This document shows positions 704-34,433 of a stretch of 46,448 nucleotides of DNA, one piece after another (the stretch's first letter is position 1; each line of letters opens with the position of its first letter). The notes beneath the pieces are model-generated. The model made no database searches, was not told the origin of the DNA, and saw only the letters and a program-made list of their open reading frames with translations. The DNA is from Vulcanimicrobiota bacterium (GTDB taxonomy: Bacteria > Vulcanimicrobiota > JAJTBE01): positions 1 to 46,448 of the forward strand of contig JAIORV010000049.1 of assembly GCA_021107945.1 (NCBI GenBank), in the 5' to 3' direction. Both the position numbers and the translations under genes were made by a program.

Positions 704-2497
704 TCAGCCAATCTCATCTTGTAATATAGTATGAATTTCCGGAATTTCTTCCATAATTTTTTCCATTTCAGATTCCTGTGCTTCCGGTGGTAATGAGAAT
801 GGTGTGACCTTGTTTCTTCCTTCTTCTTTAGAACGATACAGGGCAAGGTCGGCCTTCCTGATTAATTCCTGGGGATCTCTTGCGTCCCTGGGGAATGTTG
901 CAATTCCGATGCTGACAGTAACATTTAATAGGAATTTCCTGAACCTGACTTCCTCGTTCGCCACTTCTTTGCAGAGTCTTCTTGCAATTATCAAAGCTCC
1001 TGTTGTTGAAGTTTCTGGAAGTAAAATGCAGAATTCCTCTCCACCATATCTTCCACAGACATCTGTTGCCCTTGTGGCGCGTTTAAAAATCTTTGACACT
1101 TCAACAAGAAACTTATCGCCGGCCTGATGGCCGTAAGTGTCATTTAGTTTTTTAAAGTGGTCAAGATCAATCATCATCAGGGACATTTCGCGTCCGTACC
1201 TTCTTGCGCGGCGAAATTCCTCGTTCATTCTCTGCATGAAATGACGGCGAATGAATAATTTTGTCAAGCTGTCGGTAACCGCCATCTCGTAAAGTCTGGC
1301 ATTGTTAATGGCAACCGCCGCTTGATCTGCAAGTGTTTCTATAATGCCCAGGTCTTCCTTGGTGAAAGTCCCATTCTTTTTATTGCTTATATTTATTACC
1401 CCGATTGTTTCATCATAGACTTTAAGTGGTATGCATATGATATTATCAACATTCGAGCGTTTTGAAGCAAGAAACCGGGAGTCGGTTGACGTGTCTTGAA
1501 TAAGAAGCGGATCTCCTGTTTGCGCAACCCGCCCCGCTATTCCCTCGCCGAGTCGTATCCTTGTGCATTGGATCTCACCGTTCAATATCTTCTCTTCGGT
1601 GATCTTGTCAATACCTCTTACCACCTTCACGGCAAGTTCATCTCTTTCAAGGAGCATCAGGGAGCCTTTTGAAGCTTTTACAATATCAATAGCCTGATCA
1701 ATAATCATTACAAGCAGCTTGGTAAGATCATCAATGAAATTCAACGCTTGTCCTATGTCATAGAGAATTTTCAGGTTATGCATTTGTCTGTCGAGTTCTT
1801 TTTGTGACACACCGATTTCCTGGTAAAGAAACGCTGTTTCAAATGATGCTGCGGCCTGATCCGCCAGAAGACTCAGATATTCAAGATGTGTATGGTTTAT
1901 ACTCTTTTGATCAAGTGTTATAATGCCTATGAGCCTGTCTTTTGCTTTCAGAGGGATCCACGTGGAAGATTCAAGCAATTCCAGCTTGTTCTCCTTGAAA
2001 ATAGTTTCAAACCTCAGGTTCCCTTCAATATCGACGACCGATATGGGAATTCCGCTACCCAGCAGTTGCCAGAAAAGTCCCTCTTTATACTTGTAATGAA
2101 TACCTCTGACAGTGTCTTCATCCAGTCCAATCTGATGTGAGATCACAAAAGCGCCGTGTTTCTTATCATGAAGTAGAAGCGCGCATTTCTGTATGGGAAG
2201 CCGCTCCGCTATCATGGCTAGCAAAATTTGAGAAAGTCTCCGGGGATCCGGAGTGGAAGTGAATACTTTTCCCGCCTGGGATATGGTGAAGAGGTCGAAT
2301 ACTTTTTGATCCAGGTCTTTTGTCTGGAGTTTCAGGCTCTGTACCTTCTGGAGCAATTTCATGTTAGTTTTCTCCAGATTGTTTGATTTATCCTGAAATC
2401 TCTTTAACTTTTTTAAAAGAATTTCTTCTCGTCGGTCAACAATGGTAAACTCAACAGTATCTTTTTCATTCTTAAAAGGTTCCATATAACCCGGCAA
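704..2497 (-). CDS. Diguanylate cyclase with two GAF domains (GGDEF protein)
   Basis: This 597-residue protein should make cyclic di-GMP from two GTP in response to a sensed ligand or redox signal. A short charged coiled coil (about residues 20-62) is followed by two GAF-type sensor domains (about 65-200 and 225-390) and a C-terminal GGDEF domain (about 400-570). The active-site loop reads RYGGEEF, and a candidate product-inhibition site RATD lies five residues before GGEEF, the usual spacing for an RxxD I-site. No transmembrane segment is seen, so it is probably cytoplasmic. I prefer the TTG start at 2497 because GGGGG lies eight bases before it; an ATG four codons in (2485) is the alternative. 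It is a single gene whose 3' end abuts foldback repeats. Fold and activity are confident, the signal is unknown. Confidence 0.93.
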   Translation of the reverse strand: MPGYMEPFKNEKDTVEFTIVDRREEILLKKLKRFQDKSNNLEKTNMKLLQKVQSLKLQTKDLDQKVFDLFTISQAGKVFTSTPDPRRLSQILLAMIAERLPIQKCALLLHDKKHGAFVISHQIGLDEDTVRGIHYKYKEGLFWQLLGSGIPISVVDIEGNLRFETIFKENKLELLESSTWIPLKAKDRLIGIITLDQKSINHTHLEYLSLLADQAAASFETAFLYQEIGVSQKELDRQMHNLKILYDIGQALNFIDDLTKLLVMIIDQAIDIVKASKGSLMLLERDELAVKVVRGIDKITEEKILNGEIQCTRIRLGEGIAGRVAQTGDPLLIQDTSTDSRFLASKRSNVDNIICIPLKVYDETIGVINISNKKNGTFTKEDLGIIETLADQAAVAINNARLYEMAVTDSLTKLFIRRHFMQRMNEEFRRARRYGREMSLMMIDLDHFKKLNDTYGHQAGDKFLVEVSKIFKRATRATDVCGRYGGEEFCILLPETSTTGALIIARRLCKEVANEEVRFRKFLLNVTVSIGIATFPRDARDPQELIRKADLALYRSKEEGRNKVTPFSLPPEAQESEMEKIMEEIPEIHTILQDEIG

Positions 2498-11530: not shown

Positions 11531-14500
11531 TCACCGCGCCAGGATGATGGAAATACTGTCAACGCCAGAAATCGTGTTTGCAATGTCAGGTTTGGTGTCG
11601 CCGTTGAAATCGCCTGTCGTTATGCCGTAAGACCCGTTTCCTGTTGAATAATTTTCCGCCGCCTGGAATGTTCCGTCACCGTTTCCAAAAAGCACAGAAA
11701 CATTGTAAGAGTTGAGATTAGCTGTAACAATGTCAAGTTTACCGTCACCGTCAAAATCGCTTATAGCCACACTAATAGACATGTCTGCCGTGTCATAATT
11801 TACCGCCGCCTGGAATGTGCCGTCACCGTTTCCAAGAAGCACAGAAACATTGTCAGAGCCTTCATTAGCGATTGCAAGGTCAGGGTCGCCGTCACCGTTA
11901 AAATCGCCTGTCGCCATGCCAGAAGGCTGGTTTCCCGCTGCATAATTTACCGCCGCCACAAATGTCCCGTCTCCATTTCCAAGAAGCACAGAAGCATTGT
12001 TAGCGTTATAATTAGCGGTTGCAATGTCAAGGTCGCCGTCGCCGTTGAAATCGGCTGTCACTACACTATCAGTCCAGCCTGCTGAGGCGTAATTTACCGC
12101 TGCCACAAATGTGCCATCGCCGTTTCCAAGAAGTATAGAAACATTGCTAGTGTTAAAGTTAGCGCATGCAATATCAAGATCGCCGTCGCCGTTAAAATCT
12201 CCTGTCGTTATACCGTAAGGCCCGTCTCCCGCTGCATAATTTACCGCTGCCGCGAATGTGCCGTCGCCATTTCCAAGAAGCACAGAAACATTGTCATCAA
12301 TAGCATTGCCGACTACAATGTCAAGGTCGCCGTCTCCGTTAAAATCGCCTGTCGTAACTGCAATAGGCCCATCTCCCACAGCATAATTTACCGCTGCCAC
12401 AAATGTGCCGTCGCCGTTTCCAAGAAGCACGGATATATTGTCAGTGCCATTATTTGCGTTTGCAATGTCCAGATCGCCGTCGCCGTTAAAATCGCCTGTC
12501 ACCACGCTATAATCCTCGTCTCCTGCGGCATAATTTACCGCCACCTCAAATGTGCCGTCACCGTTTCCAAGAAACACAGAAACATTGTCGTTGAGAGCAT
12601 TAGCTGCCGCAATATCAGGTTTGTCATCGCCATTATAATCAAATGCCGCCAAGCCTCGAGGCCCGTTTCCCGAGGAATAATTTACAGCCGCCTGGAATGT
12701 ACCGTCGCCGTTTCCAAGCAAAACGGACATATTGTCATCATCATAATTAGCGACTACAATGTCTGTGTCGCCATCGCCGTTAAAATCGCTTACCGTAATT
12801 CCCATAGGCTTATCTCCCGCGGCATAATTTACCGCTGCCACAAATGTGCCGTCACCGTTTCCAAGAAGCACAGAAATGTTGTCAGAGAAATAATTTGCGG
12901 ATGCAATGTCAAGGTCGCCGTCACCGTTAAAATCGGCTGACACTAAACAATAGGGCTGGTCTCCTGTGGCATAATTTACCGCCGCCACAAATGTGCCGTC
13001 GCCGTTTCCAAGAAGCACGGACATATTGCCAGCGTTCCTGTTAGCTGTTGCAATGTCAGGGTCACCGTCACCATTAAAATCGGCTGACACTATGCTATAA
13101 GGCGCGTCTCCCGTTGCATAATTTACTGCTGCCGCAAATGTGCCGTCACCATTTCCAAGAAGCACAGATATATTGTCAGAGAAAATATTTGCGACTGCAA
13201 GGTCAAGGTCGCCGTCGCCGTTAAAATCGCCTGTCACCACGCTCCCCGGCCAGGTCCCCGCGGCATAATTTACTGCAACTTGAAATGTGCCGTCGCCGTT
13301 TCCAAGAAGCACAGAAACATTGTTAGAAGATTGATTGGCGACTGCAATGTCAGGGTCGCCATCACCATTAAAATCGGCTGCCGCTAAGCAATAGGGCTGG
13401 TCTCCTGCGGCATAATTTACCGCCGCCTCGAATGTGCCATCACCATTTCCAAGAAGTACGGACACATTGTCAGAGCCTATATTGGATGTTGCAAAGTCAG
13501 GTTTGCCGTCGCCGTTAAAATCGGCTGTCGTCACGCTGTTAGGGAAGTCTCCCGTCTGGAATTGCTGAGCGGCAATAAAGCCGAAAAATTCCTGTGGTGG
13601 AGTTGGGGGGTTGGGTCCTGGTGAATATGTCGGACTGGGTGAAGGGGAAGATGTGGGAGAAGGTGTGGGGGATATAGTGGGTGTTGGTGTCGGTGTGTAT
13701 GTGGGTGATGTTGTGGGAGATGGTGTGGGTGAGGGCTCTCCGCCTGTTGTGGTGGTCAGAATTATTCCTCCTGCCCCTGAAATGTACCCGCTATTTTTAT
13801 TGTAAAAGTGAACGCCTCTGAGGATTCTGTTTGTACCTGAAGCCTGAGTTGCCCAATTCCCCTTTCCAGTGGTGGTATGTAGAATAACGCCGCTGTCTCC
13901 AACTGCCCATCCGTTCAGGGAATCTACAAAGTGAATTCCATAAAGATTACTTTGAATTCCTGAAACCTGTGCAGTCCAGGTTGTCCCGCCGTCGGAAGTA
14001 TGTATAATCGCGCCACCCGCGCCTGAAGCCCATCCGGTCAATGAATCGACAAAAGAAACACTATAAAGATCCCCGTTGACTCCCGGGCTCTGCTGGCTCC
14101 AGGTTGTCCCGCCGTCGGCGGTGTATAATGCAACGCCGCTTCCTCCGACAATCCATCCGGTGTTTGAGCCTACAAAACATACATCATACAAAGTCGTTGT
14201 TACGCCTGATGTTTGAGAAGACCATGTGCCTCCGGAATCTGCAGAATAAAGTATAGCTCCGCTGTCTCCAACCGTCCACATTTTAGACCCGACAGCAAAG
14301 ACGCTGTGCAGGTTTAGAGAGACCTGGCGGGAGCTGCCTTCTCCCTCAGACCAGGTTGCTCCGCCGTCAGTGGTGGTGAGAATAGATCCCGAATCTCCCA
14401 CCACGATACCTGTATTAATATCTGTGAAACAAACTCCATTCAGGTTATTTGATGTCCCTGATGTTTGAGACGCCCAACTGGATCCGGCATCCGTAGTCTT

Positions 14501-24167: not shown

Positions 24168-24259
24168 ATTATCATCCTTCCAGGCAATTATTCACCGTAG
24201 GGTTCTGCGTTAAAAAAATCACTTATTCGATAGCCTCTCATTCGTCCCCCATCTCGGGA

Positions 24260-24356
24260 AGACGCTGAAGCGTCTGAAGTAGTAGGGGTTGTGTGTGCTT
24301 CCTTCTTCCCCCGGATAAATCCGGGGGTTATTCTCATGGGAGGTTTAAAAACCTCC
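24260..24356 (-). repeat. Three-hairpin composite repeat, copy A
   Basis: On the minus strand: hairpin I GGAGGTTT/AAACCTCC (24339-24356), a CATGAGAATAA spacer, hairpin II CCCCCGGAT/ATCCGGGGG (24308-24327), a spacer of about 32 bases, then hairpin III AGACGCT-TC-AGCGTCT (24260-24275) followed by TCCCG. All three stems are perfect. Confidence 0.9.
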
Positions 24357-24378: not shown

Positions 24379-24406
24379 TTATCGGGACGGGGACGTCCCT
24401 CCTACA
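24379..24406 (-). repeat. 28-base palindromic element, copy 4 (reverse)
   Basis: Reverse complement identical to copies 1 and 2 (stem GGGACG/CGTCCC). Confidence 0.9.
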
Positions 24407-24421
24407 GTTTCGGCATCCGTC

Positions 24422-27432: not shown

Positions 27433-27701
27433 TGTCTTCTCCTGAAGTTTATTTGCCATTATTCCGGGTATGATAGATTTAAGTTTTGTTTTTCTATGTG
27501 TAAAATCCTTTAAACTAACATATACAGGTCAATTTACCACCATTCATCACAGAGGTCGCCAAGATAAGAAAAAAGTTGAATGGTTACATTAATTTGCACT
27601 AAATATAATAGTAGTATATTTCCGATAATTATTCTATCCGATTCAAAGGTAATTCCCCCTTCTTTGAGGCTAATCTTTGATGACATTTTTTTAAACCGCA
27701 A

Positions 27702-27796
27702 AGACCACAGAGGGTTCAGGGGGTTGATAGACCAACGATCGTATTTCTGATTGCAAATGATGTACCTCGTTTACACCTAAAGATGTATATAAAGAT
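27702..27796 (+). repeat. Direct repeat, uninterrupted copy
   Basis: About 77 bases (27702-27778: AGACCACAGAGGGTTCA through GTACCTCGTTTACACCT) then AAAGATGTATATAAAGAT (27779-27796). The same two parts recur at 27984-28059 and 28169-28186. Confidence 0.9.
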
Positions 27797-27811
27797 TTGA
27801 ATCTTGGTAGC

Positions 27812-27916
27812 GGAGGTTTTTAAACCTCCATGAGATTAACCCCCGGATTTATCCGGGGGAACAAAGGCAACCCACCACCGTTACTGCATTAGCCGCTTTA
27901 GCGGCTTCCCGATAAG
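27812..27916 (+). repeat. Three-hairpin composite repeat, copy B
   Basis: Hairpin I GGAGGTTT/AAACCTCC (27812-27829), an ATGAGATTAA spacer, hairpin II CCCCCGGAT/ATCCGGGGG (27840-27859), AACAAAGG, CCCACC, then hairpin III AGCCGCT-TT-AGCGGCT (27891-27906) followed by TCCCGATAAGG. Hairpin III differs from copy A by a C-G to A-T pair exchange. Confidence 0.9.
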
Positions 27917-29438: not shown

Positions 29439-29466
29439 TGTAGGAGGGACGTCCCCGTCCCGATAA
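29439..29466 (+). repeat. 28-base palindromic element, copy 5
   Basis: Identical to copies 1 and 2; begins 8 bases after the sigma-factor stop codon and could act as a 3' stabilising hairpin, though no T-run follows. Confidence 0.9.
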
Positions 29467-29768
29467 ATAAATTGCGGAAAACGGAGGCCGGAAGCCAGAG
29501 TCCGGATCCCGACTCTCGACCAATAAATCGATTCCATGTCTCGATATATGGGATTTTTTTTATGATACATAACCGGTTCAATACACCCTGAGTCTGCTTT
29601 AAACTTTTTCATGGTCAGGGATCTTAAAGAGGATATCAAGATTGAGGTTAGAAATAAGAGGTTGGAAATTGGATCTAACTTCCAACCTCTAACATCCAAC
29701 TTCCAACTTCCCTTTGTGGTCTTTGCGGTGAATAGTCAAAATCATACCGGAAGAAGTTTTTTTTATCC
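29467..29768. other. Gap with a perfect 11-base-pair hairpin and repeat remnants
   Basis: No gene is visible. It holds a purine-rich remnant (29470-29520), a perfect hairpin AGAGGTTGGAA/TTCCAACCTCT (29657-29690) with a 12-base loop, further TTCCAAC units, and a TTTGTGGTCTTTGCGGTGAA element (about 29712-29731) just before the metallophosphoesterase gene. Confidence 0.75.
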
Positions 29769-30818: not shown

Positions 30819-31383
30819 GGAATGCGGGAAGATGAGGAAATAAGGATTTTACCTCTAAGGAAATAAGGAAATGAGGAAAAAACAGGACGGATTACGGAGG
30901 GTGGAGAACGGAAATCAGAGGTCGGCTCCCACTTCTCACCTCTCACATGAGAGTATCGAAAAACATAAAAATCCCGTTGTTCCCTTTTTTTCCCGTTTCC
31001 CTTTTCTCGTTTCCCGTTTCCCATTCACCACAGAGCCACGGAGGACACGGAGTTTTTAATTTTTTTCACCACAGAGGACACAGAGGACACAGAGATATCA
31101 ATGAGATTGCCTCCCCGTTCATACTATGAGACCAATCCTGCTATGAGATCAATCCCGGCTCATGTCATGAGATTAACCCCCAGGTTCACCTGGGGGAACA
31201 AAGGAATCCCACCCTCCCCTTACTTGTTCAGCCACTTCAGTGGCTTCCCGGTAAGGAAATTTCGATTTGATTTTCTCTGCACTCTCAGCCTCAAAAAACA
31301 TTTTCAATACCCTGATTTTCTACCCGCAGTTTGCAATATTCACTGGTTTTAATATCATAGAAATGATATAATATCTAACAAAT
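30819..31383. repeat. Repeat-filled gap before tatC
   Basis: No gene is visible. It has a purine-rich block (30820-30945), a pyrimidine-rich stretch with CCCGTTTCCCTTTTCTCG (about 30992-31021), two CACCACAGAGGACACAGAG-type units (31022-31093), three ATGAGAYCAATCC-like units (about 31124-31175) and the three-hairpin composite (31159-31258). Confidence 0.85.
31159..31258 (+). repeat. Three-hairpin composite repeat, copy C
   Basis: Hairpin I is replaced by CTCATG-T-CATGAG (31159-31171). Hairpin II is CCCCCAGGT-TC-ACCTGGGGG (31177-31196) and hairpin III AGCCACT-TC-AGTGGCT (31230-31245). Against copy B, two pairs change in stem II and one in stem III, each with its partner, so both stems stay perfect. 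Confidence 0.9.
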
Positions 31384-33889: not shown

Positions 33890-34433
33890 TTTTGTACTCC
33901 TTTTACATGGGCCTTCGGGCTCCGCATTTGCAGACTTATTAGATTTCGCACACCCGATATCTTTTAATATAGATCACTCAATTTGCTAAAAACGCAATTG
34001 AAATAATTTCTTTAATTGCCTTATAGCCATCTTTCACTGTGTTTATAAAATTTCGATCTTTTAAGACAATACACGGATTTTAATCGGGTGGTTAGAAGCC
34101 TATAAAACCTACCTCTCATCTCAACTAAACCGTTTCAACGGTTTCTTGATGAGATAAACCACTGAAGTGGTTAGGACGTTGTAGCGGTGGGGTTTACAAT
34201 CAATTCACCACAATAAATTGTGGTGCTGTCTTAAACACCTTAAAACACCTGTTATCACCTTAATACACTTGAAATATGTTCTATTACTTCTTAACAAATT
34301 AACAAGTGCGAAATGTGGGGACTCATCTTTTATGATATTTATTATGTCTTTGCAACTACAACCTTTTAATCTTGACTTTGTTGTTCTATTCCAACGGAAG
34401 ATGCCCTTCCTTATTGAAAAAAGCATTGCAAAT
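33890..34433. other. Gap with a fourth, divergent hairpin composite
   Basis: No gene is visible. It holds a possible nagZ promoter on the minus strand (TTGTCT at about 34062, TATAAA near 34043; weak), the related hairpin composite at 34110-34196 and AT-rich sequence of no clear kind up to the foldback element. Confidence 0.6.
34110..34196 (-). repeat. Hairpin composite, divergent copy D
   Basis: On the minus strand CCCACC is followed about 18 bases later by AACCACT-TC-AGTGGTT (like hairpin III of copies A-C), a TATCTCATCAAG spacer and AAACCGT-TGA-AACGGTTT. An ATCTCATC/TGAGATGAG pair brackets the second hairpin. The architecture is related, not identical. Confidence 0.65.

Follow-up and report, generated by a model that had tools for sequence, protein, structure and literature searches.

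A covarying double-hairpin repeat in a Vulcanimicrobiota genome and its probable relation to an IS200-like TnpA

The window, a stretch of 46,448 nucleotides that is contig C42 of a 5.56 Mb Vulcanimicrobiota genome in 215 contigs, carries at 27812-27916 a repeat in which an earlier note had recognised three hairpins with stems changing in pairs from copy to copy. The question raised by this locus is what keeps the stems paired while their sequence changes; the note had proposed selection on the structure either as RNA or as single-stranded DNA. This study indicates that hairpins II and III probably form a non-autonomous single-strand DNA module, similar to repetitive extragenic palindromes (REPs), of an IS200-like subclass 1.2 TnpA, and that the stems are kept paired by hairpin recognition. 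Our confidence is high for the link between the II-III module and TnpA and moderate for the mobility of the module. Selection on the single-strand DNA structure and REP/RAYT-type mobilisation, as suggested earlier, were right in kind. In detail, two systems are combined in the repeat, hairpin I being of the kind associated with class 2 REP-associated tyrosine transposases (RAYTs) and II-III going with a class 1, subclass 1.2-like TnpA.

Copies and covariation of hairpins II and III

A covariance model of hairpins II-III (R1), built from 42 sequences, was used together with inspection of the sequence to delimit the copies in the window, which contains three single II-III units and one inverted pair:

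27829..27913, plus strand: the II-III unit studied (R1, 99.1 bits), consisting of the guide-like leader CATGAGATTAA, hairpin II (27840-27859), a spacer, hairpin III (27891-27906) and the tail TCCCGATAAGGAAA
27807..27829, plus strand: hairpin I, a GTAG-type REP (GTAGCGGAGGTTTTTAAACCTCC), from its genome copy count, GTAG foot and fixed spacing to II-III
24253..24338, minus strand: II-III unit with hairpin III of type AGACGCT/AGCGTCT (R1, 98.7 bits)
24339..24356, minus strand: hairpin I of this minus copy, with the degenerate foot GAAAAGG for GTAGCGG (sequence)
31166..31252, plus strand: II-III unit without hairpin I (R1, 95.5 bits; sequence), with stem II of type CCCCCAGGT/ACCTGGGGG (31177-31196) and stem III of type AGCCACT/AGTGGCT (31230-31245)
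34060..34149, plus strand: first half of the inverted pair, with a degenerate CACC-type hairpin II (about 34071-34090) and hairpin III (34128-34143) (sequence)
34150..34235, minus strand: second half of the inverted pair, with hairpin III (34157-34172) and hairpin II CACCACAATAAATTGTGGTG (34206-34225) (R1, E=7.5e-5, a weaker match)

The copies, the spacer motifs and the paired stem changes described earlier were all found in place on checking the sequence, and the four compensated pairs hold, two in stem II (GGAT/ATCC versus AGGT/ACCT) and two in stem III (AGCCGCT, AGCCACT and AGACGCT). Changes in pairs are a property of hairpins II and III, but not of hairpin I, in which 7 of the 8 pairs are invariant and no compensation is seen. 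The three-hairpin layout describes the copies at 27812 and 24260, whereas the copy at 31159 starts at CATGAG and lacks hairpin I. Related units do occur at 34110-34196, but as parts of an inverted pair at about 34060-34235 and not as one variant form. The first half of this pair matches in layout an R1 match elsewhere (L012, 2218-2310) and the second half folds with z=-4.3; together, the halves (34060-34235) are a gene-less mini-element of the type found with the transposases of contigs C83, C149 and C30. The conserved stretch of the repeat extends from GGTAG (or CATGAG) to approximately 15-20 bases past hairpin III (TCCCGATAAGGAAAA). Hairpin II is preceded by ...ATTAA and hairpin III by a CTTC-like foot, and the GT[AG]G foot is absent from both.

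The covariance-model search that the earlier note had called for gave at least 146 genomic matches of R1, including 134 with E<=1e-3, a lower bound because only 150 candidates were scored. BLAST with the 27812 copy alone returned at least 40 scored full copies in addition to fragments. In 118 aligned copies, 99.0% of the stem cells were paired, compared with 88.5% after shuffling; two-sided changes occurred in 10 of the 16 stem pairs and in 185 cells, compared with 49.1 in shuffles, none of 500 shuffles reaching as high a value. The signal was lost when the partner columns were shifted by 1 to 3. As the alignment was fitted to the structure and the copies are related, these figures should not be read as probabilities. 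Uncompensated changes, which neutral drift was expected to produce, were rare, with about 1% of the cells unpaired, mainly as AGCCGCT/AGCGTCT. The types of hairpins II and III reassort, GGAT and GGTT each being combined with AGCCACT, AGACGCT and AGCCGCT. Folded as single-stranded DNA, the 27812 copy had z=-3.7.

Strong covariation, stable stems and the intergenic position of the units (92 of 96 examined fall outside open frames) would also suit a structured RNA. Such an RNA could be a regulator, a terminator or an mRNA stabiliser, the covariation of its stems then being due to function as a transcript. We consider this explanation, which the earlier note had offered, to be very unlikely, since the Rfam search of the window gave 0 matches above the gathering score, the II-III unit included, and the units form inverted brackets of transposase genes, as described below. 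The neighbouring genes are also arranged unlike those at terminators: by a crude open-frame test, divergent pairs outnumbered convergent ones by 24 to 6, and the left-hand gene pointed away from the unit in 68 of the 106 cases having such a gene call. On the basis of this orientation, a terminator role for the unit was set aside.

In front of units without hairpin I, the 5' half of the unit (CATGAGAATA-CCCCGGTTTGTCC) is often repeated in tandem in a degenerate form, as at L093, L095, L097, L099, L100 and L101.

Modules around class 1 transposase genes

The search for RAYT transposases proposed in the earlier note was carried out and revealed 12 Y1 transposase genes in the genome, of which seven are class 2 RAYT genes (Y---NP or similar) and five are class 1 genes (C73, C83, C30, C149 and C54). 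The class 1 proteins have approximately 145-156 amino acids, and four of the five contain the WQRG and YIxxQ..(H/R)H motifs, the exception being that of C54, which lacks WQ and the tyrosine. The three class 1 proteins examined scored 60.8-82.9 bits with the NCBIfam IS200/IS605 model NF033573 (cut-off 55) and missed the REP-transposase cut-off; the closest solved structure is that of ISDra2 TnpA (2xm3). Inverted R1 modules were identified on both sides of four of the class 1 genes:

C73 tnpA: L161, 401-489 (plus) and 1245-1332 (minus)
C83 tnpA: L011, 304-393 (plus) and 843-924 (minus)
C149 tnpA: L013, 1380-1469 (plus) and 1919-2000 (minus)
C30 tnpA: L012, 1874-1963 (minus) and 1342-1425 (plus)

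The C73 element spans 12956-13887 and has CCCCC-type modules, and the modules at C83, C149 and C30 are of the CACC type, like the inverted pair at 34060-34235. None of the class 2 genes of this genome is bracketed by R1 modules. In the C54 protein (L010, C54:19471-19905), the catalytic tyrosine is replaced (KKEIIDQ) and the rest is well conserved, and other hairpins lie beside the gene; this homologue is possibly inactive or domesticated.

The association is also found in other phyla. A scan based on TnpA alignments, with narrow peptide patterns, identified a marine metagenome-assembled genome (MAG) and an Ignavibacteriae MAG, in which R1 matches stand beside tnpA (E 1e-8 to 1e-6) among 12 and 13 matches genome-wide, respectively. 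A TnpA homologue was present in 167 of 395 sampled genomes of the phylum of the Ignavibacteriae MAG. In 37 relatives of the same phylum as the studied genome, R1 found no match, and TnpA homologues there were few and weak. In a tree, the five class 1 genes grouped with their 31 relatives (94/89), and the remaining class 1 proteins and those of class 2 fell outside this group.

The 31 related loci, mostly from Bacteroidota, were surveyed for double hairpins facing the gene, the minimum stem length being 7 bp for the outer and 5 bp for the inner hairpin. Inverted double hairpins occurred on 42 of 62 gene sides, and on both sides at 15 loci; 200 Markov shuffles gave a mean of 0.67 (maximum 3), and distant regions gave 1 of 53. 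With near copies removed, the two-base tips, when read towards the gene on either side, were TTYA in 54 cases versus TRAA in 10, and the longer stem of a pair was the outer one in 18 cases and the inner one in 3. Because perfect stems are symmetrical and the tips are polar, this consistent polarity points to recognition of one strand. Modules like those of one of these loci (L210) gave 16 to 55 matches in each of six Bacteroidota genomes, many being hairpin II only, whereas a different module query gave 1 to 5 matches only, with zero in three genomes. At more distant class 1 loci from plasmids, hairpins upstream and downstream of the gene mostly share tip polarity on one strand. Another class 1 TnpA group, on plasmids of Photobacterium, Pseudoalteromonas, Hafnia and Vibrio (L198, L231, L232 and L234), has conserved CCACCT... 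and GCCCCCT... hairpins in direct polarity, with pairs downstream.

These observations also bear on passive amplification, in which enzyme-free cruciforms would have spread by host recombination or slippage only. Tandem copies limited to part of the unit, its 5' half, would agree with such a process, as would the tandem arrays of hairpin I. It is nevertheless a highly improbable explanation, given that solitary copies are dispersed among unrelated flanking sequences, that the tips are strand-polar and that the association with tnpA holds across phyla.

Hairpin I and the mini-elements

Hairpin I carries GT[AG]G at its 5' foot, is intergenic and has a high copy number, its pattern (GTAGCGGAGG...CCTCC) giving 89 genome matches at no more than 2 mismatches and the reversed control pattern 0, which is how a GTAG REP is recognised. 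It is nearly invariant, stands ahead of II-III at a fixed spacing in 69 of 157 aligned rows and is also found as tandem arrays; at L051 (C75:1272-1700), five tandem 71-bp repeats of this REP with an inverted partner are followed by a full I-II-III composite. Hairpin I resembles the REPs that accompany class 2 RAYT genes on C66 and C7, and the RAYTs of L018 and L020 are flanked by GTAGCGCGGGTTTTTAAACCCGC, its relative at 4 mismatches, the exact hairpin I being absent there. From the GTAG foot, the tandem arrays, the likeness on the RAYT side and the presence in only part of the copies, we regard hairpin I as a GTAG REP of the ordinary, class 2 RAYT type that has become joined to some members of the II-III family. 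A different GTAG REP (TGTAGGAGGGACGTCCCCGTCCCGATAA) lies in the window at 24380-24407 (minus) and 29440-29467 (plus); it also accompanies class 2 RAYT genes on C1 and C21.

It could be supposed that all three hairpins are one GTAG REP composite, a bacterial interspersed mosaic element (BIME), and that one of the genome's own class 2 RAYTs mobilises it. The seven RAYT genes, the foot and tandem arrays of hairpin I and its close relative beside L018/L020 speak for this proposal. We nevertheless judge it unlikely, as GT[AG]G is absent from II and III, R1 modules bracket class 1 tnpA on both sides and no class 2 gene, and II-III lacks hairpin I in more than half of the aligned rows and is also found beside the tnpA genes of other phyla.

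Elements of 180-350 bp with inverted modules were found on C8, C114, C22, C53, C46, C105, C45 and C86. Most of them hold tnpA remnants between the modules, e.g., the C-terminal EWAMKY..W, and they look like internally deleted, non-autonomous derivatives. A separate mini-element with the ends CTAATCTTT...AAAGATTAG, of approximately 460 bp at three loci (L237, L238 and L240; C24, C68 and C105), lies inside the hairpin II tip of several units. The palindromic tip (approximately 10 bp, e.g., GGATTTATCC or AACTTCAGTT) is repeated on both sides of the insert, as if it were the target of this mini-element. The same ends occur in the window at about 27670-27799, as a shortened copy directly 5' of the 27812 repeat.

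Proposed mechanism and comparison with known systems

Concerning the function of the enzyme, TnpA of the IS200/IS605 family binds hairpins, reads loop bases and picks its cleavage sites via a guide 5' of the foot. We propose that the II-III module is recognised as a single strand by a subclass 1.2 Y1 HuH transposase, and that this minimal substrate of the IS200 type has hairpin II for its left end and hairpin III for its right end. Since the left-like and right-like hairpins lie on the same strand, a single module would be movable alone by TnpA in trans. The transposase gene may travel between two inverted modules, in an arrangement like that of RAYT genes and their REPs, and the spread of solitary modules would occur in trans. 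If the enzyme requires a hairpin with a T-T-Y-A tip, the stems would have to keep pairing, and their sequence would be free to drift by compensated changes, tracking the transposase lineage. The most constant parts would then be the guide (leader ATGAGATTAA), tip and cleavage (TCCC tail) regions. Hairpin I may have been fused ahead of one large subfamily and then copied along with it.

The copies, their covariation, the bracketing of the genes, the conservation across phyla, the polarity of the tips and the mini-elements with tnpA remnants are direct observations, from which transposition of the II-III unit, as well as binding, cleavage and the assignment of the hairpins to ends, is what we infer. 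Several points weigh against this explanation. The stem types that occur most often (GGAT or GGTT with AGCCGCT, AGCCACT or AGACGCT) stand beside no complete tnpA found in the genome, so that the TnpA belonging to these subfamilies is absent, lost or unassembled. The shuffle controls leave the relatedness of the copies unaccounted for, and the 31 loci were the relatives with the highest scores, about six of them being near copies of others. The assignment of the TnpA genes to subclass 1.2 is good, resting on motifs and the 94/89 clade and not on the published profile.

A wider proposal, to which we give an even chance, is that II-III represents a second, class 1-derived REP system. The module by itself would be a single-strand transposon of the IS200 type, minimal but complete, and the tnpA genes of subclass 1.2 would form "double-hairpin REPtrons" across Bacteroidota and other phyla, with the stem specificity co-diversifying with TnpA. 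Were the ends of this widespread single-strand transposase group, described so far as lacking recognisable ends, inverted double-hairpin modules that are also dispersed at high copy, the group would become open to experiment. It would also be an independent case, to set beside RAYTs, of a transposase becoming a REP-spreading system, and the natural compensated variants within one genome would be a data set for the hairpin features read by the enzyme.

Compared with IS200/IS605 elements (subclass 1.1; IS608 and ISDra2), the system shares a related Y1 HuH TnpA above the NCBIfam cut-off, two subterminal hairpins and an unpaired leader at the foot. However, both ends of IS200-type loci have the same strand polarity, as in the control class 1 loci, whereas the ends of the II-III loci are inverted complete two-hairpin modules, and solitary modules exceed genes by more than 20 to 1. 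For subclass 1.2, Quentin et al. 2018 (PMC6006769) reported WQ, Y---Q--HH, about 148 amino acids and occurrence in Bacteroidetes and Cyanobacteria, and noted the absence of REPs and, in general, of secondary structures at the ends. The genes studied here agree with that subclass in length, both motifs, low copy number with divergent copies and frequency in Bacteroidota, but inverted double hairpins are the rule at them (42/62 sides). Our literature search, which left out subscription journals and ISfinder, found no earlier account of subclass 1.2 ends.

The TIRYTs/TIRtrons of Di Nocera et al. 2013 (PMC3733652) are likewise Y1 genes with long inverted repeats on either side, the repeats being in part double palindromic and in part multi-copy; the 26 listed TIRYTs were assigned by Quentin et al. 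(PMC6006769) to class 2 subclasses (2.1, 2.2 and 2.5), not to subclass 1.2. The REP/RAYT (TnpA_REP) systems, REPtrons and REPINs (PMC3116915, PMC2817692, PMC8266576) resemble the module in their many short intergenic hairpins with strand-polar loops, which also bracket a Y1 HuH gene in inverted orientation; in the Marinomonas REP, the loop is TTTA and certain positions tolerate no change (PMC8266576). Unlike these, the II-III module consists of two dissimilar hairpins in a fixed order without the GTAG foot, and its transposase is of class 1 (Y---Q--HH), whereas RAYTs are of class 2 (Y---NP).
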